Shown piece after piece: positions 3,927 through 62,424 of a DNA stretch of 64,000 nt. Location of the stretch: the NCBI GenBank assembly GCA_950295325.1, contig OX485803.1, forward strand, positions 31,682,001-31,746,000. The letters run 5' to 3'. Numbering within the stretch: the stretch's first letter is position 1; each line of letters opens with the position of its first letter. The stretch is from Polytrichum commune (lineage: Eukaryota; Streptophyta; Polytrichopsida; Polytrichales; Polytrichaceae). Under the pieces are notes generated by a model, which saw only the letters and a list, made by a program, of their open reading frames with translations, was not told the DNA's origin and made no database searches. The position numbers were made by a program, and so were the translations under genes.

Positions 3927-4617
3927 ATGGCGGCCCAAGCTCAGCTGGTACTGGGCTCTTCGATTGCGCTGCCCCTCCTCCTCGACGAGCATCATCATTG
4001 CAGCTCCGCTGCTTCCCTGCGCTTGGGATGCACACAGGGACTTCACCGCTACTCGTTGAGCTGCCAAAGCTCAACGAAGGCGAAGAAGAGAAACGGGAAT
4101 GGATTGCAGCGGAGGGAGCGGAAGGGCACGGTGCGTATGGCTCTCGGGGACAATAATCCCTCACCCGCCCAGCCGCAGGTTTACCAGGGCATCTATGGGC
4201 CCTGGTCTGTGGATTCCCTCGACATTCGCGAGGTGGGTTCTGTCAAGAATTCGGTGTTTGGCCAAAGAGTTCATGATTCCTGTGCCTTTCTCACTATTCG
4301 ATTTAATTGTTGTGGATATGAAACGAGTTTGACTGGAGGGAATTTCAAATTTCAAGGCAGTTATTGTGCGAGAATGTATTTATCTGGGTTACATCTGGCC
4401 ATTACTTAACGTAAATTTTTTCCAACGGGAAGAGATTATGCACATCATTAGAGAAATTTGCCAACAAATTGTTGGACCATATGACATATTCTAAATGAGG
4501 TGGATGTGTTTGAATGTGCGGTTCGCCCTAAGAAACTGGGGGTGGAGGGCATAATCTTTCTGTTTTCGATGGAAATTACGTGGTGTGGTGTGAATGTGGA
4601 TGTTCGGCCGGTCTCGA

Positions 4618-4656
<39 letters not shown>

Positions 4657-7600
4657 AATGTCACTACTTGGGGGTTGCTAAGTAGTGTGGCTCTCCACTC
4701 GGCAATTCTTGTAGATATGATAGGAGTGTGAGAGGAGGGAAATTCAATCCAATTATTGTAGTGAGGATGTCTTTATTTGGGTTGCATTTTGTGGTGTGAA
4801 TGTCTAGAGGCTTTTGTATATGTTTAGTGTCTCTACTTTGGGGTTGTTTACCAGGGCAATTCATGTGGCTCTCCACTTGGTAATTGTTTTGGATATGAGA
4901 TGAGTATGAGAAGGGTGATTTTCAACTCATTTTTTGTGTGAGGATGTCTTTATCTGGGTTGCATTCACATTGGGCAAGAGGCATTTATACGTATCTATTG
5001 TCCGTACCTTGGGACTGTTTACGAGAGCATCTATGGATTTTGTTCCGTGGATTTTCTTGAGATTCATGAGGTGGGTTTTGGGAAGAATTCGGTGTTTGGT
5101 TTTAAATTTTTTCGTGGTTGGGCAATTCTTGTGTGGATATGATGCGAGGGTGAGAGGAGGAAGTCAATCTCTATATTTGTGCGAGTATGTCTTTGACTGG
5201 GTTGCACTCTCTGGTGCGGATGTGGATGTGGGGTATGTCTAAGGGTCTTTGTATATACCTTGTGTCCCTACTTTGGGGTTGTTTACCGAGGCATCTATGG
5301 GGCCTTGGTTTGTGGATTCCTTTGACATTCGTGCGGTGGGTTTTGTGAAGAATTCAGTGTTTGGGATTTGAAGTTTTCGTGGTTGGCGTAATTTTTGTGG
5401 ATATGATATGAGGATGAGGGAGGAGGAATTCATACTTTGCTTTTGTGTGAGGATGTCTTTTATCTGAATTGCATTTTGTGGCGCGGACATGGATGTTGGG
5501 CAAGTCTAGGGTTTTTGTATATATCTAGTGGTCCTACTTTGGGGGGGTTAACCAGGGCCTCTATGGGCTTTGGTTTGTGGATTTCCTCGACACTCGGGAA
5601 GTGGGCTTTGGGAAGAAGTCAGTGTTTGGGTTTTGAGAATTTTGTGATTGGGCAGTTCTTGTGGATATAATATGACGGTGAGAAGAGGGCGTTCAAACTT
5701 ATTTGCGTTTTGTGGCGTGGATGTGAATCTAGGGGTTTTTGTATATGTCTACTGTCCTGACTTTGAGGTTGTGTGAGGTTGTTTGTCGTGGATGTTTTGG
5801 AGCTGAACATGTGAGATTTCTTTTACTGTTCCGTTTTAGGAAGGCCATTTTCAGAATCAAAGTTTTACCTACTCAGCGGTGTAGTATTGTCCACCCTTGT
5901 ATGAAATATTGGTGCATTATTCATACACAAATTGAAATAACCAATTTGTGATCAGAGCGATCTTCTGATGAGACGCCTAATTTTTCAATGTAACCACTGA
6001 CAGAGGGGTTCTGACAAGACCCAAGCACTTCATTTTTGGAAGAGGTTCTGTGCTTCTGTGATCTTTCAGCGCTTGCCCTACATGTGGATCTGAAGATTAA
6101 ATGATTAGTCTGAGGCTTTGTCCTCATATGACTTGAACTCATGTATTCAGTGGGGATGTCGTTGAAAGAGGCTTCTTCCATGAAGTTGGTTGTGAATGGC
6201 TTGGGGTTTAATGGCTTGCCACCATTTTGCTATTGGTGCATATATGATTTGTTTCCTGTTTCATTCTAGTTTTGATTGCTTCGTATTGCCTATGTAAGGT
6301 AAGCAGGTCTTTCGTGGTCATTTTACTAATTGGACAGCTGCATTTGAGTGGTGTGGATGTAAGAACAGACACCAAATGGGCATCATGTGTTTTAAAGAGA
6401 TTGGACTACGTGCTCAAAATACGTTAAACCACTCTAGGTGCAATAGTCAACATAATTGGGGGTACCTAAGTGACCTTTCAATGTCCACAAGACTCTTCAC
6501 TTTGACAATGAATAATAAGATATTCACATGAGCTCTGAAAATATGAGTAAAATGGCTACGGTGGTGACTTGGAATTGGCAACCATCTCGCACTAATTGTG
6601 TGTTTCATATTCTACGAGAAGTGTCCGTTTGAGGCATGCTGACGTTAATCCTAGATGCTTGGAATAATTTATCCCTCTTGATTCTTATTTTTAGGGTTTA
6701 CTGGTTACCTTTATCTGTGAGTTTTGCTTGAACATCAACACTTACACGCATATGTTGTTGTGTTGGGAAATTCCAGGTGGTGCTTTACCGCACGGGTTTG
6801 GTAACAGCAGCTACGACATTCATCGCTGCAGGCCTGACCGCATTTCTACCCGATGACAATGCTCTGAAGAGCTTGTTACAAGGTTTATACGATCCATTGT
6901 ACGTTGTTGGGGCTGGAGGGCTTGGGACAGCATTGTTCCTCATCCATATCTATGTCACTCCTATCAAGAGGACATTGCAGGCTCTCTGGGCAGTAGGGGT
7001 TTTGGGTTCATTGGGCGTTGCAGTAAACTTTGCGGCCCCGGAAAATCAAGGGTTGGTGACGTATGTGGTGGAGCATCCAGCAGCCATCTGGGCTGTTGGG
7101 CCCCTCTTCGCATCACTGACCGGCCTCGTTTTTAAGGAGGGTAAGAAGTGCTTATCTCTTGTTGCAATTTCATCTGCATGTTGGTTCCAGTTTTGACGAT
7201 GGGTAGACTTGCTGGGCTTCCTCTAACGGAGACAGGTCTTAAATGGCTCTTTTTTTCCGATTGGCCCACTTCTCCTAGAATATGAAACATGCAACTAGTA
7301 TGATACGATTAGCAAACTATATCAAGGCTGGCGCCATTTTTCTCATAATTCTGGTCTTCATATGAACATCTTATTCATTTTCAAGGTATAGAGTCTCTTG
7401 GATGATCATATGCAGATGAACAAACTTTGAGGATAATGTCTGATCTCTTTTCAGCACATGCCTTTTGGGTCTCCGTTCTTAGGTCCACATTAACCACAAA
7501 CCACTCAAATATATGTGTCTGTTCAAGATAAGTAACTGAATTAGGCCACTTACCCCAAGCTAAACTGAGTATATCATTTTGATCCCAAAAGATGTGGCTA

Positions 7601-23590: not shown

Positions 23591-24078
23591 ACAAGACTGA
23601 GAGCCCGTGACCATTACACTTCAAGCACTCTCATTGGTGGAAAAGGCGGAGCCGGTCCAAGTTTGCTTCACACTACGCTTGAGGGACCAACGGAGTATGT
23701 GAATGCAAGATGGATGTAAAGTCTACATGGATTCCTACATGGTGTCGAATGAATCATGTTTCATGGTCACTTGGATTATTTTCAAAAATCACCTCCTGGA
23801 GATAGGCCTAACACAAAACCGAGAGACTATGGCACTGTGAATGCTCACAACCGTTGGTTTATTTTACTTTATCATATGTGAGGACTTGCATGAATATAAA
23901 TTCATTGAAATAGCATTTGGTTGAGGGTCCAGTCACATATGGCTTCACACTACACTCGAAGATCCGTAATCAGACTACATGATTTTGGAGGTGTCATGAG
24001 ATAGCCTTTGGACACTTTCTTTTGGGCTCTCACAATTTCATTGTCACGGCTATTGGCTCCTGTATGAAGTGGCCCTAA

Positions 24079-27000
24079 GAGATAAAACCTTTAATTTATC
24101 TAGGACTTCATTACACCAGGCCCAACGACACTGTTTATGGTATTTGGTGTCATGTGCATTATTTGCGAAGGGCCTAAACTAGATGCTTAGAGGTTTCAAA
24201 GTGTCATGTACGCTAATTGCCAACGTGATACTATGTGCCGACAAAAGTAACTCTTTAAAGTGAAGTTATTTGCAATGTGACTTTTAGCCGAGCACATTGG
24301 GATACTTGAGATGATAGCTTTTGTGATTCAATATTCAAGGGGAAGATAGTACTAAGCATGTCAATGGGGAAGTGTCATGTATTTACAATTTAGTATGCAA
24401 GTGGAAGATATTATTGAGCATACTAATGCCAAGTGTCATTTGTGTACATTTTAGTCAATTTTGTAAATTATTGTGTAATACAGGCATACACCTCATAACA
24501 TTATTGAACATACTCATGCCAAGATGTCAGTAAGCACACTTGAACGCCAAAAGTCATGAAGAGACACTACTCATGAAGTTGTTGATCATTAGTGTAACCT
24601 AGCATACGCCTCGAAATAGGGTACGTGACACTAAATAGCATAAATGGTGTGATGACAACACACCTTTCAACTAGAGAAAGATTGGATGTGCATATTGTTT
24701 ATGGTCAACCACATGGAAATAAGCTCATGAACTAAAGGGCTAAATAGAAAGGGAATATTCTCTTTATACTCCTATACATTTTGCATCTCTATTCTGATTA
24801 TGAAACTTGAAGTGATGAATTTTATGATTCGCAATTGCTAATCGGATGAGATAATACTCGAGCTGATGCAACGGTCGAAAATGTTTGTGAAGTTGGAATT
24901 GTCCACCAAGTGGGTTATGGGGTCCAATTGTGGACACCCTATTCCAACTTCCTATACAATTTGACTGTTGGATTGGGTTACAATTTGTTCTATTAGACCA
25001 ACAACAATAAATCACATAATCCTCATTTCGAGTTTCTTAATCGAAACAGAGATGCAAAGCTTACAAAAAATGAAGAATTTTTTCTCTCTAGAAGTGGTCA
25101 CATACTAGACCCTCCCAAAGGAGCGTGTTAACCATTCAACCTAAGTTAAATAACACAGAGTCCAATCTCATTGTAACATGTGTCTTACGTTTTGGTATTT
25201 GGATTTTGTCCTTACACACATAACTAAAGGTTCGTGACCATTGCATTCTAAGATCTCTCATTGGTCAGAAAGGTCAAGACCTTCCAAGCTCACTTTACAC
25301 TAGAAGGTGAAGGCCTAAGGGCCCAAAGAAATTATCGTGGCTAAAAGTCTACATGAATCCTATATGGCAAACTATAACTATGATGTTTTATGGTTTTGCC
25401 GGAATTTGCGTTAGGGATCTGCAAATTCCAACATACAATGTCAATCAAACAATTGGTATTGGTTGTGGATGAGAGTGGAGGGCCCTCACAATCACATGGT
25501 CCGGCCCTTGGCTTGTGTGCAAAGTAGCCCTTAGTAATAATACTTGCCATAAGCTTATACCATACCACAGAACTATAGGTATACAATTACAAAGAGTGAC
25601 CACAAAAAACATAACATTAGTCAACACAAGAGCTCACTTCCAAGCCTTGGCTAAAATCATACTAACATTGTTCATGTTTATAAGGTAAGTAATGTTATAT
25701 TCTTGGCATCTTAGATGGAGGGTTCTTGGCCCACCCAATCACCAAGGTTATAACCCCCTACATACATGGCGCATACTTTATAATCATGATTATTAATACC
25801 TTAGATATAAATACTAACATAACATTAATCATATGGTGATGATGTCTTTGTGGGGCCAAAAATATGGGCCGTTTATTTGCGTATCGTAAGACTTGGATTC
25901 CACCAATGTCTTAAGTTTAGCTTGGCATGTTGGCTAGCTACCACCCCCAACCATTAGCCTCACAAGGTGGGCAACATGTGTTGTCACCTAATCCATCTCC
26001 TACTGTTGGTATCTACCCACCTTTCCTGGGTTTAGGACTTGCATGTTTCCATTATCTACCTACATGTTGCAACCACGCGGGCTGCACCCTAAACCCCCCT
26101 CTTACCTTCCCAACGGCTCATGGCCCCCCCCTGGGCTCCCTTCTTTCTTGAAGTGAGGAGTAACATGCACAACCCTAAGAACATCTATTGTCTCTATAAG
26201 CATGTATGCTTGTCCAATTTGTGACCATCTAAGCTCTGGGCGCTCAAGCAATTGATGAAATCTAATTTCTTGATACATTCTTGCAAAGGCTAACTCCTTT
26301 GTGATTTTAAGGTTCCCTATCAACACATACATGTTGCACTTGAAAGAAGACAAATTTGTCCAAAACAAGTTTTATCCAAATCCCCTATTGGCAACACTAC
26401 TAAACTACTCATCACCATTGAAATTGCTAGAAGCTTGAGCATACATTGGTTGGTCGCCGAATCTTGAACCCGTACTAGTAGATATGGCCAAAGAGGAAAA
26501 TATTTGCAATACCTACCAAACAAATGGATGCAAGTTGGTTTAGAATTCGGCTAAAACATTCAAACATGTTTGCACAACCTGTTCACGAAGGTTTCAAAAT
26601 GCTTTAACTTTCATCAAGAATTGAATTGAAAGTTAATACTAATGCATTCAAATTTATGCCATTTGTACAAGTTTATGATAACATGTCAACATTTTAAATT
26701 TAAATATATACTAGATATGAGGCTATTGTTTTCACAACCGGTTGTGGGAAACCTTCTCTCTATTGAGCATGTTTCCTTAGTGCCTAAAGTGTATTGGTTG
26801 TGCTTCACAATGTAACTAGAGTAGTTTCTTCAGCCATTGCTTCTTGTAGTTAAGGTTTTTGCTAGGGCTCAAACTGACCCAAAGAAGACAACCCAGGGAA
26901 CTAGGTCTCAAGAAAGACTGAGCTCCGCCTATGCCACTGGACCTTGCATTGGAGCATTCGGTCATATTCTAAACCCTCTCAATTAAGGTGGAAATACCAT

Positions 27001-27913: not shown

Positions 27914-30900
27914 ATGGGAGGAGTGAAATCCCCCGAGGTGAAGCGGGCGTTGTTGCATCCAGATGCACCGGGTGACACTCGGTGCACGAAGAATGACAGA
28001 AGGAGGTGGAGGTGTAGTGGAACCAAGGTAGAAGGCTCCAGGTTCTGTTCCCGTCATGGGAAGCAGCGGGCTGGGAATGAGAAAGTCCATTCTATGAAGA
28101 AGTCGCTTGGAGGAACAGATGGAGATGCAAATGGAAACGGAAATGGTGCACCTCCTGACAAGGAGGGAAGTGGTAGTGGTAATGGTGATTCTCTGAAGAA
28201 GAAGAAGTTGGATGGAGACCCAGATGCAAAAGCAAATGTCGCAATTCTTGATGCGGGGGTAGGGGGTAGTGGTAGTGGTGATTCTCTGAAGAAGTTGCTT
28301 GGAGGAGGAGGAGGAGGAGGAGCAGATGCAAATGCAAATGGTGCAGTTCCTGATGCGGGGGGAAGTGGTATTGGTCGTGGAGGTGGTGGTGGAACAGGGG
28401 AAATGCGTGTTGCATGTCCGGATGGGGTTGCAGGCCCTGGGGATGACAAAACCGCCGTAGGACCAGCTACTTTGCCTTCGAGTACTGGTCATGCAGCTCC
28501 AGAGTTGGATCTCCGGGAATTGAAACGGATGTTGCAATTGAAGTTGGCCGAGTCCACGGCCCGAGTGGATGAGGTGAACATTTCCTACATTATATGTTTC
28601 TCTGTTTGTTTGTTTGTTTGTTTGGCCTGCATCACCAAGTTAGTATGAAGAGGTGACTGAATTTTCTAAACTAGTACGTGGATGTGGATGTCGATCACAT
28701 TCTTTCCTTGCCGGTGACTTGCAGGTTTTACAAAGTTTAGTGAGTGTGGACCAGCTATAGACATCTCTAAAATGGTCTGGCTGCTGGCTTAACAATGCAT
28801 CAGTTTATGCTGTGATTTTCTGTCTTTTTGGCGTGCTTCACCAAGTTAGTATGAATAGGTGACTAGTTTTTGTCCTGCTAATTATCTGCATACCGAATCT
28901 GACGAATGAGAGACTTATATCTAGTTATTATCTGCAACATCTGTGGATTTGCTGGGTTGAAGTCCAGTGCACGTATTGGAAAATTTGAGAATGAGCATTG
29001 ATGTGGGAGCAGATGGAGAAGCAGATGGAGCAGCAGAGGGCTCAACTGGAAGCTGCACTCGAGAGGGACAATTGTACTAGCCAAAGCAAGGACATTGTTC
29101 CAAAGGCCCACAAGCAAGGGGCAGTAATTAAATTGGACATGGCTCAAGTACAAAAGCGCAACCAGACCTTAATGCGGCAATTCGGTGTCATCTTCAACAA
29201 GGTTTATAATATCAAATCTTATGATGTTTGCCACACTTGCTTTTTGCAGACTCTCATGTGTTCCTGCTTCACACTGCATGCTGATACATTTCTCATCATC
29301 ATTTCTTATTAAATGACTGATTATTGCTAGGTGTTTTACAGATCTGCAAACATGAATGGGCCTGGCCATTTATGGCACCAGTTGATACAGTGGGATTAGG
29401 ACTATATGATTACTTTGATGTGAGTTTTTTTTCTACTTTGTGAGCCTTTTCAATATTCACTTTTGGACGTCATTTTATGATCAGACACAGCTCCAACAGA
29501 TCTTTACACAAAATGTTGGAATACCATAACATGCAGGTCATAAAGCATCCAATGGACCTGGGAACGATCAAGAAGCGCATCGATGAAGGATTCTACTGCA
29601 ATGTGAAGGAAATGTGCAAGGATATGAGGCTAGTTTTTGCAAACGCCATAAAGTATAATGAAGCAGGCACAGACATCTATCTAATGGCTATCAAGTTGTT
29701 GTCTAAGTTTGAAGATTGGTGGTTCCCTCTTGCCTCTAAAGTTCAAGAGCCTGAACAGGTATGCTCTGCTTGAGTCTCTAATTGCAGGAGTCTTGGTGAA
29801 GGTTTTTTGTAATTACAAGAGATCTCCTTTGTCATAAATGGGCTCAATTAAAGTAGTGGATGTGCATGATAAATGTGCATTGCGAATTTGCATGAGGAGG
29901 TGAATGAGACAAGTAATTGTTGTGTCACCTATTTGGCAAGTAGGTCATCCAACAATTGGAGGGTGTGCAGTCAGCAAAGGGTGCAATGGCAATTGCAGAG
30001 AAACTTTCAAACTCTGTACTTTCTCAGGTCAATCTTTCTCTGAATCTTGAATCTCCATAGCTATTGGGAGTTGGATTCTCTTGTATACATGACTGCAAAA
30101 GGTGGACTTGTTTGCCTTGAAAGGTTGGATTTCAACATCTCTGCGTGCATGACATGCATCTGAAACCTTTAATTTTGGTGTTGCAGATTGAGGACCTGGA
30201 GAAAGAGTTGGTTCATCTACAACAACAAGCGCTCTCTAGGAAAAGGTCAAACCAGATTTACCTCTTCTTTCTATAGTTTTGGAGATGCGCTGAACCAAGT
30301 TGTGTCAGTTGGGTGCCAGGAGAATGCATTCTGGTTGTTTTTGTGCCCATTGGTTGTTGAGAATGTTGTGGGAGCTTGAGTCTTCCAATTTTTTCAATTT
30401 GAGGTCAGATTAGCATTTGTACCATCCTCATTTGATCAAGAGTAAGTGAGGTACTTAGGTGCCTTGAAATCCCTCATTTGTGTTTCATCTTTTACAAGCT
30501 TCCTTTATTGTAATGATTAGTACAGGCCCATGGACTTATCAGAGAAGCAGCAGCTGGGGCAGAGACTGCAGCACCTACCCCCCCAAATATATGAACGAGC
30601 TTTGAGAATTATTGAAAAGCAAGTTCCTGCTGCAGTCAAAACCCGGGGTGATGAAGTAGACGTTGATTTCACGGCATTGGTGAGTGTGCTGGTTTTGGTT
30701 TTTTTTTCTACTCTTGTGATATCAAGCTAGTGCGTAAATGACTATTCTGGGTAGAGATTCGAGTTGTGACATAGAAAATTAAAGAGTTTCACTCCTTTTT
30801 TGCCTAGGCGGGTAAATCCACATATTGAGGTGTATCACAGAAACTAGGTTCTTACTGGCTCTGTTTGACTTATATTGCCTTCTACTCTTATGTTGTCTGT

Positions 30901-34427: not shown

Positions 34428-37400
34428 CTATTGCAAAGGTGCAAAACATCGTACCTTATGGTATACTGAAGCATCACCCACAGCCTTTCGCACCTCCACC
34501 ATATACAAGGAAGGTGCAACCTCAAACACCTGAAATTCAATATATCATTATCAAGAACCTCACCAACCATGTTATGGCACAATAACTATCATCAAGGAAA
34601 GGGGTTTGCCAAGGCTTCAAACCTTGCCATATAAGTAACTCCAACAACATCAGCAAACCTTTTCAATGATAAATATTAAGAGCAACAGTTTCCACAAATA
34701 TGAATAGTTGATATGCCCAACTTCCAGAGATTTCAACTATTCTCATGCTGTGGGAGTGCATAATAGGAGGTTTTTTTTAAACACCTCAATGGCCACAGCC
34801 AACTGCTGGCCTTTCCTCCATGCAGGGATTCCTTCAAGCCTCATCTGCCCAAATCAAGTCCATAGGTGCACTTATCAGTATTTCTCAAGACTAGATAGAG
34901 AGGTATCTACATATAGAAGGACACATATAAACGTCGGCTCCTTATGGAGCAAGCATGAATGAAGAGCCTCCTCGTCCGCACATTGCTACCCCTTTCGTGG
35001 GTGGTTCTATTCTAGGCGCTAACAAACAAATATGAACCTTCTTAAACCTAATAAAAGCATAGCGCATTTAGAACCGGGATGTTTACACGAGAGCTCGACC
35101 TTGCAATCTTTCAAAAGCTTGATACGTGGATTTGGCAAGCTTTAAACCAAAGCTGAAACTAATGAGAGGTTGACCAATCCTCTACCTCCTCTCAATAGTT
35201 TGAGTAGGTGTAAAGTGGTTGGCAGTTCAAAGTGAGATATCAAGGGAGAATGGCACTACACAAAGGAGAATTTGTGACAAGCCAATCGGTTTGGGGCCCA
35301 CTAAACTAGAACCCCGACTCTCAACAAAGTTTAAGTGACCTTCATGAGGTAGTTCAAGACTTTGAGTGAGAGCTTGTTGTAGTAGTCGCTCCATATGGTT
35401 CCATACGGTTCCATACGGAACAAGTACTACTACGACAAGCTTTTGCGCAAAGTCCACCATCCAAGTGTTGTACGCTCACCAAAAACGTGGGGTTCAAGTG
35501 TGAAGGGGACTTGAGTGAACGAACGTGAGTAAGAGGCTCCTTGTTCCAAAGAGAAGGCTCTTGTCTCCAAGCTCTCAACCTCCCTCTGGTGTAAAAAGGG
35601 GGTCTAAGTTACGCGACTTTCCTCAATCATGTTTTGACACGAATGCTATGACTTGAAGAAGTCGTTGTATAGTTTGATAATTTAGGACAAGTACCTGGTA
35701 ATTGCGCGTTTCAACACTAAATTCCATTGACTTGGCAGTGGCTTCCATTCGGGACACAATTTCTCTAGCTGGCCTTTTTGAGGTGAAGCGTGTTTGACTC
35801 TTGCCGTTGTCCTGCACAAATTGTGTGTTTGAGATACCAAAGGGTCAAGAACACTAATAACATTACGCAAACCTATCAACCTCGTTCTCTTTCTAAACCT
35901 AGTAAAAACCCATTCCTTCACTTCCATCCATGTGAGATTCATGTGAAATTGAATCAAGATTTCGCAACTTACACTTCTATGGCCAGGGCTAACGTCCACC
36001 TCTTTGAGTTGAGCCCCTACCGCTATTACCCAAAGTGGAAATGCAAACAACTCTATTATAACATGTATATTTCTATATTTTGACACGTAAACCCTAAAAT
36101 TAGCATCAAAAGACCTATTCAATATAGAAGAACTAACTTGAAATACATAAACCACAAACCTACATGGGCTTGTTTTTTTACTAGACCTCTCCCCCCCCCA
36201 ATTACCTTGGTAGTCGTGGTGGGGACCCAACTCAAAGAGGTGGGTGTCTAACCTGGCCCACTTCCATGATGAAACCCAAAGTGCAACCAACTAAGATTAT
36301 TCATTTTCAGGAAAGAAAACATGCTCTCTCCACTTGATAATGTTAATAGTAGGATGATATAACACACCTGCCGTCTATCAAAGAGAGGAGAGAGGTTGAG
36401 TCCTTGAGAAAGGGTGATAAGTTCGAACGCATTCATCATGGATGGGCATTTGTCTTGGACCTGTTCTCGCTCTTTCAGAAGTTGTTCCTGCATGCATTTC
36501 CTCGTAAAAGTAAGCAGGAAAGAAAGAGTTTAGAGTGTCACATAACTTACTCAGCTGCATCTACTGATGTGTTTCTCACTCTCAAGCATTGGACGAGGAA
36601 ATAAGAGTGATCAATGGTTGGTTGGCAGCAATCATCCTCTCGGAAATTCTCAAGAGCGTGATCGCGCGTTTGGCAGCAAAAGGTATTGAATTTTGTGCTG
36701 CCAAATGCATGATCTCCATCCTTCTCTACAGAACCGGTGTGTGGAGGAATCTGAATGATGTGGCATCTTTCTCGTGGCTATGAAGAGGACGTTTATAACC
36801 CTTAGCCATTCCCCACCGCAACTGGTAAACTAGAAACTAATAATCGATAAGAAATTTTGGGTTCTCGTTTGGCTTGATTCCTCCTCACATTAGTTATATA
36901 TGTTAATCGATATGTGTCACCCGACTATGGATTATATACACTAGTAGAAAACTATGCAAAAAAGAACAGAGTCGTTCTTCTATTGCGGTTCTTTTGACCA
37001 CCCTGCTATGCAGTCATTAAACGACTGTATATATATTTTTTGGTTTACCAGCTGAATATTTGAAAATTTAGGGGCTTTTGATATACCGTTGGAAAGGTCT
37101 TGAAAATATCTTTCCAACGGTATATTACTCGCCCCCAAATTAATAAAATTACCGTCGAAAAAAGAGAAAGAAAAATAGCAGAGCAGGGTGGTCAAAAGAA
37201 CCCCAATGGAAAAATGACTCCGGTTGTTTTTCGCATAGTTTTCTACTAGTGATAGTTGTGCCCACTCAGCGCTCTCGCGGCTCGTGAAGGTGATTGGCTA
37301 GAACTTATAATCAGTCCCTCATCCAAGTGAAAGACACTTCCAACAATTCCCCTACACTTTTCCACCCACATATAACTCATTTTCCTTCATAATCTCCAGA

Positions 37401-38793
37401 TTTTGTCCACGAGCAGACTAATTTTGTCCCATAAACAACTTGAGTAGGCGGGTGTCTCATTGCTCCCACAACTCGTCCTCCGCTCTTCTCTTGCCGGTTT
37501 TGTAGTCCATAATCCGCTTGGGATTGTATCTCGCTTACATATTGCTCTCAGTGGCTCCAAGGAGGCCATAAATCTGACGATAATCACTACTAGAAGTAGT
37601 TTGACTCCTCGTGTCGGTTATCCTACAGTTGTAGTTTCCTGTTTTTGAATCAAAGATGGTAAAGTGAGCAACATATGAATCACTGACCTCTGATTCGAAG
37701 AGAGCCTCAATATTGTCGATCTTAATGTCGTTGTCCAAGTACATTTGTGTGGGTTTATAGTGCTTCCGGAACCATTCGTGTTGCAGAATTCCCTCCACCC
37801 TGATGCGCTGCAGTGCAATTTATTATCTCCTGATTTTCTCCACTGGAAGACTTTGATTCGGTCTTCATGACATGACTCAAATCAACCAAAATTGTCCTCG
37901 AGTGATATTGCTCTATTTGAAATTCATGGCTCTTAATGTACTGGATATTAATTGTATGTGAAGAGATCTGCTACAACTTGTAGCAGGTGACATTGTGTAC
38001 GATGTTAAGCATGGCGTTCACCATGTCGCCAGGGTCGTTTGTTACGGTCCATATTCATTGTGTTTGTGTCCAATGTAGACATGACATGTCAGTGAGATTT
38101 GAGAGAGTGAACGCTACATGATCACTTTTTGATTGGACGCTTGGTATATGACAAGGCTTATGGTTAAGAACAGACACTAGAATGACACAGGTTACGGTGA
38201 GACTAGACTATATGTTTCAAATATATGCATCATTCTAGGTTCAATAGTTAACACAATTGGGAGAACCTAATGTGACCAGTTCAAGAAAGAGAAGCTCTTC
38301 GTTTTGACCTCCAATAAAATATGCATCTCAACTATGAATCCCAAGCTTGAAATATCTTTGTAATTTGCAATTGCTAACTTAATAGACAATTCCCAATCCA
38401 TGCTCCGACCACCAACATTCTTTGTGGACCATAGGGACACAAACCTTACATCCCTTACAGTTTCTTAACAACACAAATAAGAGGTCCCACATCGAGATAA
38501 ACTTACAGTGCTAGGATCTGGATCCAGAATGCTCGAAATGAGTGACCGAGCACCCGACGAAAACCAAGGTGGGTATGTAAACTTTGCCTCCCGAATCTGG
38601 TGACCACCATGAAGTAGGAAAAGTTAGTTACAGTCTTAATATCTTACCAATTGGGCACAAAAAAATAGTTTCTTGAGTGTGCCACATTTCATGCAATGGT
38701 TAGTGGAACGGTGAAAAAGATGACATAGCTTGAACATACATTCAATTTTGACAAGCAAAGTGCCTAGATTGATAAGGTACTACAGGTAGTCAG

Positions 38794-38830
<37 letters not shown>

Positions 38831-41800
38831 CAAGAAATACTTTCTTTAGCTTATCTGTCTACTTCTCTTACATCTTTCAGTAGGTGCATATTATAGAAAA
38901 AAACCACTTCTTCATGCATTTTTTCCATACATAACCATTTGGTGACTGAGGTGGCATTCCATGATATCCATAGAGGGTGATTTCCATAGAGCATATCCCT
39001 CGTCCTTCCCACATTCAATCTAAGCCATAGATCTCCATGATTAAAGGGTCTACAAGAGATGGGTCCCAAATGGTTATGTCCAGTACACCCCTCAAGGGTT
39101 ACCTTGTCCATCCAAGTCACAAAAATTGCATCAATACTTTGAGGACGAAGAGGCTCTTCATTCATACTTGCTCCTCCTTGAACCTACATATCTATCTATC
39201 TATCTATGACACAAAGATGATGAAGATCATCAGGTTGCAAGTAATCAACAACACACCTTGTTATAGAGACTGTTGAGATCTGATTCATTGAACGGAAGAT
39301 ATCCAGCCATTAAAATGAAGAGGATGACTCCACATGACCAGACATCGGCCACTTGACCATCATAACCCTTGTCATCGAGAACCTGTCCACAGCCATTGCA
39401 CAACCCTTCAAGTTTCATAAAGTATACTATTAGAAGCACTGAAATGACTTGAGTGGACTGTGGCCTTAATCTTGTAGGTGACCAACATTATACACAAGCC
39501 AGTTTCTTTTGGTCAAGTGTACTGACGAGACTTAAAAGCAAAGCCAAACCATTGGCGATGCTGTTTATATTGGACATAATTACACTCTGAATTACCTCGG
39601 GTGCGACGTAGTTGGGGGTGCCGCAAGTTGTGTATAGAAGGCCGTCCGCCTGTATTTCAAAGCTACAATAATTAATCCCAAAAGAAAATTTATGAGATGC
39701 TTTACAGACAGCCATGTGAGGAAAGGATTGTTTCATACTAGTAATGGAAAACAAAATAAATTGCAAGCAAGCAAACAGCAAGAGGCTGGAGTTGCCGTAC
39801 CCTCACTTGCTGAGGAAGTGCACTTAGCCCAAAATCTGAGATTTTTAAATTTCCCCTCGAGTCCAAGAGCAGATTCTCTGGCTGTGAATGGAAGGGCACA
39901 GAAGAAAATTCAGTAAAAGTTTCTCCAAGGACAGAAATATCATACCTTCCTGGATTGGCAAACATGCAAGGTTCAGCTTCTTTAGGGTGGGTTTCAACGT
40001 ATGTTGTTCACCCACCATACCCTGGTGGGAATAAGGACAAATGTAGATGAAAATATGGTGGGCTATATGGTTCATATGTGTCAATCTATCATTGTTATTT
40101 TATGTGTTTAGTTGGCGCATGAAAGTCTAGTGACTCATGGTTACGGCCCTCCACATTCTAAAAGGCAACCAAAATGTGGTTGTTTGGTTGCTTCTGATAT
40201 CTTCACGAAAACACACCCAACCCATTATTATCTAGAATCTAGTGGGTCAATGACGGACATGCAAACCCACCCGTACAACATGATTTGCAGTTGATAAACT
40301 CATTTTTGAGAAGCATTACTTCACAATTTCTTTCGTTAAGAAAAGTGCTTTTAATTGGTTATTATAAGGTAGACATTTGAAAATGTAAACCTTTTATAAT
40401 CCATACATATGTGGTATCAATGTATTCCTTTGGATTCCAACTTAACAATCTTTGGCATGTGTACAAATGTTCTCTTCCTATTCTAGCTTCAAACATACAT
40501 CTCCAAGAACTGAGGTCCTTGAGTACATGCATTCACTGCATGGTGAGCATAGGCAAGTGGCAAGCTCTCATTAGTCAAGACCTCATTGTTGCCTATCTTC
40601 TGACACAAAGCCTCCCCTCATCTACCCAGACTCAACTTAAAGACCTTGACAAAATGAACCTCATCAAGTATATATTTTCCAAGATGCTCTCCAAGAAAGC
40701 AACTCACTATAACATCATCATTTAAAAAAAGTCATTTGAAGGATGTTGCTCTTCTTTGTGACTAAAAAACCAACAATTCACTACAAGGACATTTCAGAAC
40801 TAGACTAGGTAGTCCTATTAGTGTGGGCCAGAGAATTTCTTTAGAGCCCACGCTAAATCTCATCATGAGAAAATGTGGGTGATGCTTTTGTTTTTGTGCT
40901 ACTTTTGATGTAAGGCAACTATTTTATTTTACATTTGGTGTTGGCCGGAAGTCTTCATGACGACTTAGGGAAAGACCCTAAGTTTTGAACACATGTTAAC
41001 TTTCATCTTGACTAGAAAAGTAGTGTGACCACATTGATTATTTCCACACTAATTTTCCACTCACACTAATAGGACTATTTAATGTATTGATCAATATTCT
41101 AAACTTAAGGAAAGTTCAAATCGCACCTTCAAGTCTCGATGAGTGACACCTTTGCTGTGGCAATAAGCAACTCCATCTATGAGCTGATGGAAGTACAAGC
41201 GAGCTTGGCTCTCCGAAAGCCTTCCTTGATGGACCTGCCAAACTTTCGATTACAGGAATCACAAACCATAATTCTACCTCTTGAAAATCTATCCACACAG
41301 CTCCAAATGTCGAATTCAAGTAGTATCAGGTGATCTTCAAAACCTGGGGTTAACTTACAATTTTATCGAACAACTCGCCACCCGTCACGAATTCCATGAC
41401 CATGTAGATCTTCACACCACTGGCCAGGACCTGCAGAGAAGAGATTTGAGCGGGATCATGATGATTAAAATTGAATCGATGTGTCCGATTGCAACAAAAT
41501 TCTGCTAAGTTACAAAAGAATTTAATGGTAGAAAGAGATGATACTGCATCTGCATACATACATACATACATATATACCTCGTGCAAGCGGACCACATTCG
41601 GATGTCTGACGAGCTTCATGATGGAAATCTCGCGCTTAATCTGCCATTACCAAAAGCATCATTGTGTAAGCCAAGATATCCTGTCAATTTGCATCCCCCT
41701 CCTCCACCGCTCTAATCCCAGACGGCCGATGTACTGCGACACCGAGAGTCCATGGCTTAAGAATGGTCTAAGAGTTCACTGCAATTCGGTTAACAATCGA

Positions 41801-42886
41801 GTTCTACCCTCAATCTTCCACTAGAGGCTAGAACTCGACAGAAAATGAGACAACCCAGGAAACTCAAAGATTGAAGATCGCAGACATAAGGCTCATCATG
41901 TTCATCATCGGTCCTAAATGACTGAATCTCTGACCTACTGCAACGACCTGTGAAGCAGATTTGTGTTCCTGGAGTTTGAAGGCATGGAAATGTGTCTTAA
42001 TAAGCAACATCTGCTCCACCATCTTGTGTTTGAGAATGGTCTCTCTTACCCAACACCCAGAGTCCGTGGCTTAAGAGTGGGCCCAAAACGGATTAAGAAT
42101 TCTCTGCAATTCAGGTGACAATCGAGTTCCAGCCTCAATCTTCCACTAGAGGCTAGAAATCGGCAGAAAATGAACAACCCAGGAAACTCAAAGATTGAAA
42201 ATCGCAAACTTAAGGCTCTTCATGTTGATGATCGGTTCTGAAGAACTGAATCTCTGAACTATTGCAATGAACTATCAGGAAAATTTGTGCTCCTGGAGTT
42301 CTAAGCCACTGATGATCCATGAAAATGTTATTGAGCACCTCCACCATCTTGTGTTTGAGAATGGACTCTCTCACAACACGTTCACCGCCTCCGAGACCAA
42401 GAGTCCGAGGCTTAAGAATGGCTTAAGAATCCTCCACAATCGAGTTAACAATCGAGTTCTAGCCGGTTGGTCGGAGTTCTAGCCGGTTGGTCGGAGTTCT
42501 ACCCTCAATCTTCCAGTGGAGGTTAGAACTCGAAAGAAAATGGAACAACCCAGGAAACTCAAAGATTGGACATGGCAAACTCAAGGCTCATCATGTTGGT
42601 GATTGGTCCTGAATGTCTGAATTTCTGAACTACTGCAGCAATGGACTGTGAAGCAGATTTGTGTTCCTGGAGCTTGAAGGCAGACTTCATGATCCATGAA
42701 AATGTGCTATTGAGCCATCACCTGCTCCACCATCTTGTGTTTGATGATTGTTTCTCTATCCAACACCTTCACCGCCACGCTCTCCCCTGTCTCCGAATTT
42801 TGTGCATACTTCACCTTAGCGAAGGAGCCTTCGCCTATGGTTCGCCCCAATTCATACTTCCCCACTTTCCTAGTCGGTATCACCAT
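34428..42886 (-). CDS. CIPK: CBL-interacting protein kinase (CIPK/SnRK3), terminal exon not found
   Basis: Thirteen exons, in gene order: 42886-42722, 41640-41578, 41430-41359, 41234-41127, 39881-39801, 39649-39596, 39382-39257, 38596-38507, 37807-37688, 36487-36368, 35811-35695, 34844-34785 and 34529-34455. All junctions are GT/AG at phase 0, giving 417 codons. Residues 1-250 are a Ser/Thr kinase: GEGSFAKV loop, catalytic Lys40, HRDLK with Asp134, DFG from Asp152, the CIPK-typical activation loop [12 protein letters not shown], and [10 protein letters not shown]. Residues 312-330 are the NAF motif ([14 protein letters not shown]) that binds CBL calcium sensors; about 335-365 are the PP2C-interaction region ([17 protein letters not shown]). 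The end reads [15 protein letters not shown]...VYHK. Read-through after YHK meets a stop at 34430-34428; the expected FY...LKD-V-W exon was not located. The many introns place it in the intron-rich CIPK group. Role: calcium-dependent control of ion transport, with CBLs at membranes. Confidence 0.93.
36939..37251. mobile_element. CACTA-type non-autonomous element in CIPK intron 9
   Basis: Both ends are CACTAGTAGAAAACTATGC in inverted orientation, and similarity continues to about 70 bp (GGTTCTTTTGACCACCCTGC). It is flanked by a 3-bp duplication ATA (36936-36938 and 37252-37254), as expected for CACTA/EnSpm elements. The centre holds a second palindrome around TACCGTTGGAAAGGTCTTGA at about 37080-37128. 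There is no transposase. Confidence 0.92.
38794..38829. repeat. (TCAA)9 microsatellite
   Basis: Nine uninterrupted TCAA units lie in CIPK intron 7. Confidence 0.95.
40790..41090. mobile_element. Decayed inverted-repeat element in CIPK intron 4
   Basis: The left part reads TAGTCCTATTAGTGTGGGCC and the right part, reverse-complemented, reads AGTCCTATTAGTGTGAGTGG. The interior (GAGCCCACGCTAAATCTCAT, GTCTTCATGACGACTTAGGG) matches the better preserved copy at 52656-53026. Confidence 0.65.
41700..42721 (-). repeat. Tandem array in CIPK intron 1 carrying exon 1 edge copies
   Basis: Three units of roughly 325-385 bp share long blocks: CAATCTTCCACTAGAGG, ACAACCCAGGAAACTCAAAG and GTGTTCCTGGAG. Each unit also contains the 3' end of exon 1, seen on the + strand as CCACCATCTTGTGTTTGA, at 42727 (real exon), 42341 and 42016. 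The copy at 42341 keeps a GT donor (GAG|GTGCTC in gene sense), while the one at 42016 has lost it. A 20-bp direct duplication (TTCTAGCCGGTTGGTCGGAG) sits at about 42458-42497. Confidence 0.85.
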
Positions 42887-48030: not shown

Positions 48031-48652
48031 TTGGCCCACCACTTTTTCACACTATTACAGCCGGAGATGCCTACGGATGGTGTCAAAAGTGGTTGGCGTA
48101 ATTAGCCTCTCAGTGGTCACAAGTTAGTCACCAAGAATCTAGCATCCTATATGTAATCTGGGTGAAGAGGAGGCCACACACACGTTCGAAAACGCCGGTT
48201 TCAAAACAGAGTTTGGTAAGCCAAGGTGAAAATGGTATTGGCCCACCACTTTTTCACATTATTACAACCGGAGATGCCTACGGATGGTGTCAAAAGTGGC
48301 CGGCGTAATTAGCCTCTTAGTGGTCACAAGTTAGTCACCAAGAATCTAGCATCCTATATGTATTTTGGGTGAAGAGGAGGCCACACACGCGCTCGAAAAC
48401 GCTGGTTTCAAAACGAAGTTTGGTAAGCCAAGGTGAAAACGGTTTTGGCCCACCACTTTTTCACACTATTACAGCCGGAGATGTCTACGGATGGTGTCAA
48501 AAGTGGCTAGTGTAATTAGCCTCTCAGTGGTCACAAGTTAGTTACCAAGAATCTAGCATCCTATATGTATTCTGGGTGAAGAGGAGGCCACACACACGCT
48601 CGAAAACGCCGGTGTACAAAACAGAGTTTGGTAAGCCAAGGTGAAAACGGTT
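48031..48652. repeat. Three tandem ~208-bp units
   Basis: The units start TTGGCCCACCACTTTTTCAC at 48031, 48239 and 48445, and are 208, 206 and 208 bp long with few differences. Each contains CCGGAGATG-CTACGGATGG, TAGCATCCTATATGTA and GGTAAGCCAAGGTGAAAA. The third unit ends where the inverted structure at 48653-48960 begins. Confidence 0.95.
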
Positions 48653-48960
48653 TTGGCCTTGACATGTGCCTAACTTCAAGCAGCTAGGTTAAAACCGTCC
48701 GTTTCCAACTCCGATCGGAACCGCAAGTTTTAAACCTTGCAATGGAGTTGCAAACATACCATTTTCAACCCAGAAAAAAAAGGATTGGCCTTGAAACCCA
48801 GCTCCTTGAAATTAGGCACATGTCAAGACCGAAATTGTTTTTACCTTGGCTTACCAAGCTCCGTTTCGAATCCGACGTTTTTGAAAGTGTGGCCTCCCCT
48901 TGAGACAGAGTGGCCGGGGGGCTGCCACTTTTGGTCAACTAACGGCAGGCCTCTCCTATA
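48625..48960. repeat. Inverted repeat closing the 208-bp tandem array
   Basis: The arm GGCCTTGACATGTGCCTAAC at about 48655 is inverted at 48805-48830 (CTTGAAATTAGGCACATGTC). The opposite strand then continues into decayed sequence of the 208-bp unit up to about 48950 (TTTTACCTTGGCTTACCAAG, GTGTGGCCTCC). The tandem units therefore look like the expanded left arm of an inverted-repeat element. Confidence 0.75.
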
Positions 48961-49068: not shown

Positions 49069-49304
49069 GAGTGATGGGGGAGATTTTTTGGCATACTAAT
49101 CGGTTGAGATCCTAGTGTTTGCAAGTCCAACCGGTTACATGTTGTTTACATCCTCCGGTTCTCCTTTATTAAATTAGGGTATATTTTATAGATTCCTCTA
49201 AAATGATCGGTAAATTTCCTGCAGTCTTGAACTTCAACCGGTTATTATTTCTCAAACTCAACTGGTTCATCTGTAACTAACTGCCGGTTCTCCCCGATCA
49301 TTGA
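49069..49304. mobile_element. 236-bp hAT-like MITE, copy 1
   Basis: The ends are GAGTGATGGGGGAG (left) and CAATGATCGGGGAG (right, reverse complement). The flanks are AATCCTAG (49061-49068) and AATCCTCG (49305-49312), an 8-bp duplication with one mismatch. The interior holds repeated AACCGGTT/CCGGTT motifs, as expected for subterminal transposase-binding sites. Confidence 0.85.
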
Positions 49305-49346
49305 ATCCTCGTGAAGAAAGCCAAAGAAACGATGACGACTTGGAGT

Positions 49347-49582
49347 CAGTGATCGGGGAGATTGTTTGGGCATACTAATCGGTTGAGACCCTAGTGCTTG
49401 CAAATCCAACCGGTTACATGTTGATGACATCCTTGGGTTTTCTTTTACGAAATTGGGGTATATTCTTCTATAGATTCCTCTAAAACGATCGGTAATTTTC
49501 CTGCAATCTTGAACTTCAACCGGTTATTTCTCAAACTCAACCGGTTCATTTGTAACTAACTGCCGGTTCTCCCCGATCATAG
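49347..49582. mobile_element. 236-bp hAT-like MITE, copy 2
   Basis: The ends are CAGTGATCGGGGAG (left) and CTATGATCGGGGAG (right, reverse complement). The flanks are exact 8-bp CTTGGAGT repeats at 49339-49346 and 49583-49590. It has the same orientation and length as copy 1, from which it is separated by 42 bp. CCGGTT motifs occur at matching places. Confidence 0.92.
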
Positions 49583-53026: not shown

Positions 53027-53483
53027 CTAGATGAACCGGTTAAGGTTGAGACCTAACCGGTTGAAGCTCAAGACTTCACGAAAACTACCCTTCGTCTTAA
53101 AGAAATCTAATTCATTAGCAAAGATTAGCAGAGACAAACCGAAAGATGTCAACATGTATCCAAGTTAAGATCTCGACCGATTATGCCCAAAAACCTCCTC
53201 GGACACTGTTTTTGATCCACAATACGGATGCATATATTATAACACTTTTCGGCAGCTACCTTAGATGGTGGGCATGCATGCATTTATTATCTCGTGGAAA
53301 GGGAACGATCTCAGAAACTCTCCCAAACATAAGTTATTCCTGACACGGAGATTTTTTTGCCGCTTGAATCTGAAATTATGAATGTCATCGAACCGCTCAG
53401 TGCGTGCATAGGCTAGATTCTAACTTACCGAATGGGAATCTACTACAAACACAAACACACACACACACACACACTATATATAT

Positions 53484-54152
53484 ATGCATGCGTCTCCAGG
53501 TAGCATCTGAAACGCGACTCTAATTTAGGGCCACTTTACACACGAGCCAAGAGCCGTGACCATGAAATTGTGAGAGCCCCAAAGAAACTGTCCAAAGGCC
53601 GTCCCAACACACCTCCAACATCATGTAGTGTGGTCACGGACCCTCAAGTGTAGTGTGAAGTCATATGTGACCGGGCCCTCAACCAAATGCTATTTCAATG
53701 AATTTTTTTTCATGTGGGTTCTCACACATGATAGAATAGAATAAACCAACGGCTGTGAGCGTTCGGAGTGCCATGGTCTCCTGGTTTTGTGTCAGGCCTA
53801 CCTACACACACACACACACACACACACACCATGCATGCGTCTCCAGGTAGCATCTGAAATGCGACTCTAACTTAGGGCCGCTTTACACACGAGCCAAGAG
53901 ATGTGACCATGAAATTGTGAGAGCCCAAAAGAAAGTGTCCAAGGCTGTCCCAACACACCTCCAACATCATGTAGTAGTGTGGTCACGGATCCTCAAGTGT
54001 AGTGTGAAGTTATATGTGACCGAGTCCTCAACCAAATGCTACTTCAATGAATTTGTTTTCACGTGGGTCCTCACACATGATAGAATAGAATAAACCAATG
54101 GTTGTGAGCGTTCGGAGTGCCATAGTCTCCCGGTTTTGTGTCAGGCCTACCT
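53484..54152. repeat. Tandem duplication of a MITE 5' part bounded by (CA)n tracts
   Basis: The segment from ATGCATGCGTCTCCAGGTAG to TTTTGTGTCAGGCCTACC occurs at 53484-53803 and again at 53831-54152 with a few changes. (CA)n tracts lie directly before each copy (53454-53474 and 53804-53829). The duplicated part contains the first ~275 bp of the Harbinger-like MITE; the first copy is therefore truncated (53528-53803). Confidence 0.9.
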
Positions 54153-54378
54153 CCAAGAGGTGGTTTTTGAAAATAGTCCCAGTGACCATGAAACATGATC
54201 CATTCGATGCCGTGTAGGAATCCATGTGGACTTTACGTCCATCTTGCATTCACATACTCCGTTGGTCCCTCAAGCGTAGTGTGAAGCAGCAAACTTGGAC
54301 CGGCTCCGCCTTTTCCACCAATGAGAGTGCTTGGAGTGTGATGGTCACGGGCTCTCGGTCTCGTGTGTGAAGTGGCCC
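53875..54378. mobile_element. PIF/Harbinger-like (Tourist) MITE, 504 bp
   Basis: The ends are GGGCCGCTTTACACACGAG (left) and GGGCCACTTCACACACGAG (right, reverse complement). The flanks are TTA (53872-53874 and 54379-54381), the 3-bp duplication typical of this superfamily. It is in the opposite orientation to the copy at 22844-24075. No transposase. Confidence 0.92.
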
Positions 54379-62164: not shown

Positions 62165-62424
62165 GATCTCGAGAAGAAAAGTTGCACAATTGGATGGGTA
62201 TCTTTATACACTTCAAGTTATATGTATATGGTAAGCTAGCAAATAGAGTGCAAGCCTAAAATTGCACTTTATACCAAGCATTGAACATAGGATTGATCTC
62301 GAGAAGAAAAGTTGCGCAATCGGATGGGTGTCTTTATACACTTTCACTTTAAATGTTTATGGTAAGCTAGCAACAAAGTACAAGTGTGAAATTGCACTTT
62401 ATACCAAGGATTGAACTTAGGATA
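62165..62424. repeat. Two tandem 130-bp units
   Basis: Both units start GATCTCGAGAAGAAAAGTTG (62165 and 62295) and end TTGCACTTTATACCAAG-ATTGAAC. They differ at scattered positions, so this is an old duplication. Confidence 0.9.

Follow-up and report, generated by a model that had tools for sequence, protein, structure and literature searches.

Tandem copies of the exon 1 edge in the first intron of a Polytrichum commune CIPK gene and their recurrence at other first coding donors

In a 64-kb stretch of the genome of the moss Polytrichum commune (assembly GCA_950295325.1, contig OX485803.1, positions 31,682,001 to 31,746,000; the whole of this stretch is hereafter the window), the first intron of a CIPK gene carries two extra copies of the 3' edge of exon 1, each lying in a tandem unit that runs on into intronic sequence. 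The same arrangement is seen in the DUF2301 gene of the window and, elsewhere in the genome, at the first coding donors of the proteasome alpha1 and alpha7 genes. It is fairly likely, in our judgment, that such arrays reflect tandem duplication and unequal exchange, with mostly neutral copies that are tolerated through the original donor upstream of them; the CIPK array itself is probably an old, mostly neutral tandem expansion. Tandem arrays are probably biased toward first introns, and the cause of this bias could be either mutational or a matter of survival.

Structure and age of the CIPK intron 1 array

The CIPK gene was modelled on the minus strand, from 42886 to at least 34455, with GT-AG introns (Table 1). 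It combines the kinase (PF00069) and NAF (PF03822) domains by which membership in the CIPK/SnRK3 family is recognized, and the closest solved chains to its protein are those of CIPK24 and CIPK23, which we take to be AtCIPK24 and AtCIPK23 of Arabidopsis. The reading frame continues in phase across the junction of exons 1 and 2. Two repeat finders detected direct repeats at 41739-42776, with self-BLAST E values of 1e-119 and 9e-65, and these results and the alignments bear out the initial annotation, which had proposed two extra exon 1 edge copies, one still with a GT, in tandem units of intron 1. The array extends from about 41734 to 42776 and comprises two extra units beyond the original, at a spacing of about 315-385 bp, each of which opens in sequence from the end of exon 1 (its last ~40-55 nt). 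The copied segments are adjacent, in direct orientation, and hold both exon and intron sequence, as is characteristic of a boundary-crossing tandem duplication. One copy retains a donor, as had been claimed, but the GT of unit 1 sits at 42338-42337 (minus strand) and not at 42335-42336; in unit 2 the GT is gone (CAG/ATG, with the slash at the exon edge). Scored with a matrix of the 23 donors of the window, the unit 1 donor copy reaches 6.5 bits versus 7.7 bits for the true CIPK donor, which scores 6.1 bits once it is itself excluded from the matrix.

Between units, the aligned sites are 74-81% identical in the exon part and 80-83% identical in the intron part (76% and 83%, respectively, for unit 1 versus unit 2), amounting to 17-26% divergence, to which indels are added. 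The first introns of three CIPK paralogs measure 390, 307, and 278 bp; less its two extra units, that of the window gene would be ~411 bp, against the 390 bp of the closest paralog. The copies encode ILKHK, as do two of the three paralogs (the third has VLKHK), and exon 1 of the window gene encodes IIKHK. Since copies and paralogs agree against the gene's own exon, the duplication probably predates the change to IIKHK, as far as these few residues indicate.

Other classes of element were considered for the CIPK units and set aside. A transposable element was rejected, as no homologous copy was found elsewhere in the 408-Mb genome, where the unit matched only itself in a search that skipped very common words. 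Minisatellites have units of about 10-100 bp that vary in number, and the CIPK units (~315-385 bp) are too long for this class. A cassette or mutually exclusive exon does not fit, because only the last 40-55 nt of the exon are copied, unit 2 has no GT, and on read-through the frame is closed by a stop 12 nt beyond exon 1. No microhomology was read at the CIPK breakpoints, whose junctions, judged by eye alone, are too decayed for it.

The DUF2301 array resembles that of CIPK in its arrangement but is unrelated to it in sequence: no kinship was detected between the two, and the units of the six genes compared share only matches of 11-15 nt. The recurrence in two genes claimed by the initial annotation stands, but the arrays lie ~37 kb apart rather than 30 kb. 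GT is present in all three DUF2301 edge copies (at 5071, 5336, and 5601), the exon-derived part of the copies is 69-76% identical versus 76-81% for the intronic part, and read-through past exon 1 reaches a stop after 174 nt.

Table 1. Features of the two genes and their intron 1 arrays (window coordinates)
Feature	Position	Strand	Remarks
CIPK gene as modelled	34455..42886	-	13 exons; kinase + NAF domains; last exon(s) not found
CIPK exon 1 (MVIPTRK...KHKMVEQ)	42722..42886	-	phase 0 end at CAG/GT
CIPK intron 1, 1081 bp	41641..42721	-	gene model
Unit 0: exon 1 last 55 nt + head of intron 1	42390..42776	-	boundaries approximate
20-bp tandem repeat within unit 0	42454..42501	-	
Unit 1: first extra copy	42060..42389	-	boundaries approximate
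Exon 1 tail copy, unit 1	42339..42389	-	44/54 aligned sites identical to last 55 nt of exon 1
Unit 2: second extra copy	41734..42059	-	boundaries approximate
Exon 1 tail copy, unit 2	42011..42050 (recognizable part)	-	40/54 aligned sites; 12 residues still readable
DUF2301 exon 1	3927..4232	+	PF10063 match in exon 2; gene at 3.9-9.8 kb
DUF2301 intron 1 array	4178..5800	+	exon 1 edge copies begin near 5017, 5281, 5546

Recurrence and placement of exon-edge arrays

A scan of exon edges in other genes, as the initial annotation had proposed, was run on 35 further stretches of the 408-Mb, 64-contig genome, picked by family and blind to repeats. These comprised 3 CIPK paralogs (the intron-bearing ones from 150 scored of 963 candidates), 9 Cpn60/TCP1 stretches, 17 Ras-family stretches, and 6 proteasome-family stretches; among the matches listed, they covered 43/50 for Cpn60/TCP1, 41/53 for the Ras family, and 8/18 for the proteasome. 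The proteasome genes were sampled last, and the end of sampling was not set by a planned size. Four of the 35 stretches (L051, L055, L038, and L022) proved to contain exon-edge copies, in two of them again at first donors. In the proteasome alpha1 gene (L051), the first coding donor is present as the original and four edge copies spaced 220-275 bp apart (array 408-1704), and in the alpha7 (PAD-like) gene (L055), it is present as the original and two edge copies ~250 bp apart (oriented positions 311-1290); both arrays open inside exon 1, in its last ~17-20 nt. The alpha7 intron 1 is 1036 bp long versus 396 bp in the paralog L056, in whose intron 1 no self-repeats were found. The exons of the two paralogs are 79-82% identical, and their introns show no alignment beyond 20 nt. 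In the sampled Ras-family, Cpn60/TCP1, and CIPK-paralog genes, there were no copies of a first-donor edge.

Other exon edges are copied too, so the limitation to the first 5' splice site implied by the initial annotation does not hold. (i) In L038, which we take to be a Rab2-like gene, the donor of the second recognized intron is copied once with a period of 70 (560-612 and 630-682); some sites of this copy look, by eye, like those of the paralog L039. (ii) In L022, the closest CIPK paralog (C2:46692000-46695300, minus strand), the acceptor of intron 1 is copied once with a period of about 140, the duplicate (oriented positions 908-1001 and 1048-1151) placing an exon 2 start (IKREIFIMKLVRHHFV and then a stop) upstream of the true exon 2. 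A later intron of L022 contains an 86-bp tandem repeat (2333-2500), and no self-repeats were detected in the other two CIPK paralogs, L023 and L024. (iii) At window coordinates -61649 to -61116 (minus strand), L018 has a donor-edge array with the copies CAG/GTGAGG and CAG/GTGTGA; its exon, near -61.6 kb, has no Pfam match, and its donor could be of any rank in the gene. Intron 1 arrays away from the edge occur in L027 and L034 and also, within the 200 kb surrounding the window, in the gene for the Hsp70-interacting protein HIP (PF18253; L009 6300-6410 and the next intron, window coordinates 140300-141080), where the array begins ~160 nt past the donor. The HIP and L018 arrays were seen during inspection of arrays and do not enter the intron counts.

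For these counts, an intron was taken as a first coding intron if an in-frame ATG lay close upstream or the N terminus was recognized, which gave 13 such introns (11.0 kb) and 64 others (30.5 kb); a few of the latter may in fact be first, as L033, L037, L039, L044, L046, and L052 were scored as other despite an upstream in-frame ATG. L033 also has a repeat, uncounted here, ahead of its first match. Tandem arrays are present in 5/13 first introns versus 2/64 others (Fisher P = 0.0011; per base, P = 0.017), or 4/64 if two loosely spaced duplications (L028 and L052) are counted (Fisher P = 0.0055; per base, P = 0.062); addition of the repeat-free L053, L054, and L056 gives 5/16, with Fisher P = 0.003 (strict) or 0.0135 (loose). 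Hence, the first-intron preference suggested by the initial annotation is upheld by the counts of introns but weakened per base, the more so once the loose cases are included. The per-base test is weaker because first introns are longer than others in this sample; it is conservative in the sense that arrays lengthen their host introns. Donor-edge copies, counted independently of the window, occur in 2/13 first introns versus 1/64 others (P = 0.07) and, with the window included, in 4/16 versus 1/84 (P = 0.002).

Within the window, three genes with 46 modelled exon edges in all were searched for edge copies, which were judged against 100 shuffles. Clear copies were obtained for 2 of the 46 edges, both of them first donors (2/3 first donors versus 0/43 other edges). 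A marginal low-complexity match of the WRC-BET intron 1 acceptor (33 versus a shuffle maximum of 27) and two intron-only matches (31 versus 29 and 31 versus 28) were not counted. As the hypothesis was drawn from the same window, probabilities computed on it (see below) only frame the question. Tandem arrays are common in this region: the window and its surroundings, 264 kb in all, hold 21.

Origin and fate of the copies

The events that we favor can be laid out for CIPK as follows. A segment of ~330 bp, made up of the last ~55 nt of exon 1 and the adjoining part of intron 1, would have been duplicated in tandem, presumably during repair, and a further unit would have been gained later, either in a second duplication or by unequal exchange of one unit with another. 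The original exon 1 still lies with its donor upstream of the copies, so ordinary splicing from that donor should excise the whole array and leave the protein unchanged, and the copies may thereafter have decayed largely neutrally. The exon-derived parts indeed decay as fast as the intronic parts or faster. Capture of the exon edge may simply follow from unit length relative to intron length: with assumed unit lengths, the chance that an intron-overlapping unit holds the donor is 0.45 for CIPK, 0.13 for DUF2301, 0.23 for alpha1, and 0.47 for alpha7. A unit of ~250-330 bp in an intron of ~300-400 bp would often include the edge, so that CIPK and alpha7 need no special targeting.

Several observations weigh against an account by chance and neutrality alone. 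If the seven window units are placed at random, 0.72 are expected across any edge (P of at least 2, 0.16), but only 0.065 first donors are expected to be straddled (P of at least 2, 0.0016); pure chance placement fits the window poorly. The donor GT is retained in 12 of 13 edge copies, those of the L018 array among them, versus 8.1 expected from dinucleotide retention in the same alignments (P = 0.019). This value is optimistic, given that the copies of an array have a common history and that alignment was anchored at the donor, but it speaks against full neutrality. Moreover, identity among the DUF2301 copies is 87-90% over their first 30 intronic nt, above that of the remainder.

Two explanations for the first-intron bias appear to us about equally plausible, each falling somewhat short of an even chance. 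According to one, first introns in this genome would be mutational hot spots at their start, with breaks or nicks just beyond promoters being repaired in a way that yields tandem duplications; these would begin in exon 1 and expand later. This agrees with the excess of arrays in independent first coding introns reported above under both strict and loose counting, with the multi-copy arrays that open at the very end of exon 1 in alpha1 and alpha7, and with the fact that all four placeable donor-edge arrays of at least three units (CIPK, DUF2301, alpha1, and alpha7) are at first coding donors. The sample is small, however, the greater length of first introns weakens the test per base, and edges at other sites are also copied. 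GC skew does not differ between first and other introns (P = 0.29), leaving the link to R-loops drawn by the initial annotation without support. The same picture would also be expected if duplications arose everywhere and persisted mainly at first donors. The upstream, cap-proximal donor would be the one recognized first, so that copies behind it stay silent, and copies ahead of an acceptor or close to an internal exon would interfere with splicing. Such survival bias would account for the six donor-side cases versus one on the acceptor side (the two of the window and L018 included), although this imbalance is not significant (two-sided sign test, P = 0.125), and for the acceptor case of L022, which, translated by eye, amounts to an upstream decoy exon edge running into a stop. 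A broader proposal, which we regard as slightly more tentative than either of these, is that arrays have arisen independently and repeatedly at the first 5' splice site in many genes of the lineage, with units of ~220-345 bp starting in the last ~17-55 nt of exon 1; first introns would thereby grow stepwise and spare donors would be partly kept. This would make a separate route of first-intron growth, coupled to transcription or early splice-site recognition.

A selected regulatory function, which the initial annotation had raised as a shared outcome, seems unlikely. Repeated intron heads might boost expression, or spare donors might act as U1 decoys against premature polyadenylation; the retention of GT and the conserved intron heads of DUF2301 would accord with this, as would the DUF2301 copy donors, the best of which match the true donor in score, whereas a weak one has only 0.7 bits. 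Conversely, the exon-derived parts show no surplus conservation, one CIPK donor is lost, and the paralogs L023 and L024 (CIPK) and L056 (alpha7) do without self-repeats. The intron-enhancement motif TTNGATYTG is absent from the 11.0 kb of first introns and occurs three times in the others, and CGATT is found at 0.54 per kb in first versus 0.33 per kb in other introns, values given without an estimate of significance. Use of the copies as functional alternative exons or donors is highly improbable: the score of the unit 1 donor is close to that of the true donor, and 12 residues can still be read in unit 2, but extension of exon 1 to the unit 1 donor takes in four in-frame stops, the copies are fragments of an exon, and unit 2 has no donor. 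Finally, assembly error, which the initial annotation had allowed for, is all but ruled out by the 17-26% divergence and the indels between units, as a false join would give near-identical copies.

Relation to known systems and further repeats

Judged from its sequence, the CIPK array appears to be a donor-side form of the known boundary-crossing tandem duplication, and its recurrence in first introns is an interesting but under-powered sign. Passages of a study of the potato RdRp gene describe a tandem duplication across an intron-exon boundary from which a new intron arose and also mention an 83-bp tandem duplication inside the first intron (PeerJ 2016, PMC4974935). As far as those passages go, both cases concern tandem copies of exon plus intron sequence in a plant gene, but the potato duplication is on the acceptor side and created an intron, whereas that of CIPK is on the donor side, has several units, and shows no sign of a new intron. 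Earlier work on intragenic duplication, as represented in papers that cite it, likewise concerns duplications within a gene, sometimes with introns; in CIPK, unlike in that work, the partial exon stays intronic, and apparently no coding sequence is gained. In rice, according to excerpts of the reports, tandem duplications are the commonest source of insertions and are ascribed to repair of nearby nicks (PMC7971508; mechanism background, PMC8355091). This mechanism would be a plausible source of two-copy direct duplications in plants, but tandem duplications make up a falling proportion of events in the rice data, 5% by 200 bp (PMC7971508), and the present units are ~220-345 bp and multi-copy. 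In land-plant genes, sections of a survey place the peak of repeat density in the 5' untranslated region and the 200 nt upstream and find intronic repeats denser near intron-exon junctions (PMC3887541). This is comparable to our observations in the non-random placement of tandem repeats, but the motifs listed are mostly short, and exon-edge capture is not described in those sections. Searches of an open-licence library, which leaves most subscription journals outside, gave no description of arrays tied to first donors; apart from the papers cited, they covered titles and abstract openings.

The length of first introns has long called for an explanation, and here the added length is countable in repeat units: the CIPK intron comes close to a paralog-sized intron plus two units, and that of alpha7 has 1036 bp beside the 396 bp of its repeat-free counterpart. 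Should the bias extend genome-wide, intron growth would be linked to a particular process near promoters, either mutational or of survival; otherwise, the arrays would be an ordinary by-product of abundant tandem duplication.

The other genes or families recognized in the window are Dof, Rcd1-like, and the WRC-BET gene, which combines a WRC-like motif (under the Pfam cut-off) with bromodomain and BET domains; together with CIPK and DUF2301, this set of families is indicative of a land plant. Four further arrays, at 48031-48658, 49070-49580, 53443-54155, and 62165-62423, have units of 130-355 bp that are 87-93% identical; they look intergenic, and a Pfam scan of the stretches beside them gave no match. 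The segments 53525-53806 and 53871-54364 are inverted and 85-87% similar to parts of 23591-24079. A degenerate in-frame repeat around GDSLKK is found at 28089-28380, in the first modelled coding exon of the WRC-BET gene. Two Ras-family genes, at C1:4132030-4133499 and C1:4152197-4153666, have identical match scores and lie in opposite orientation, ~20 kb apart.

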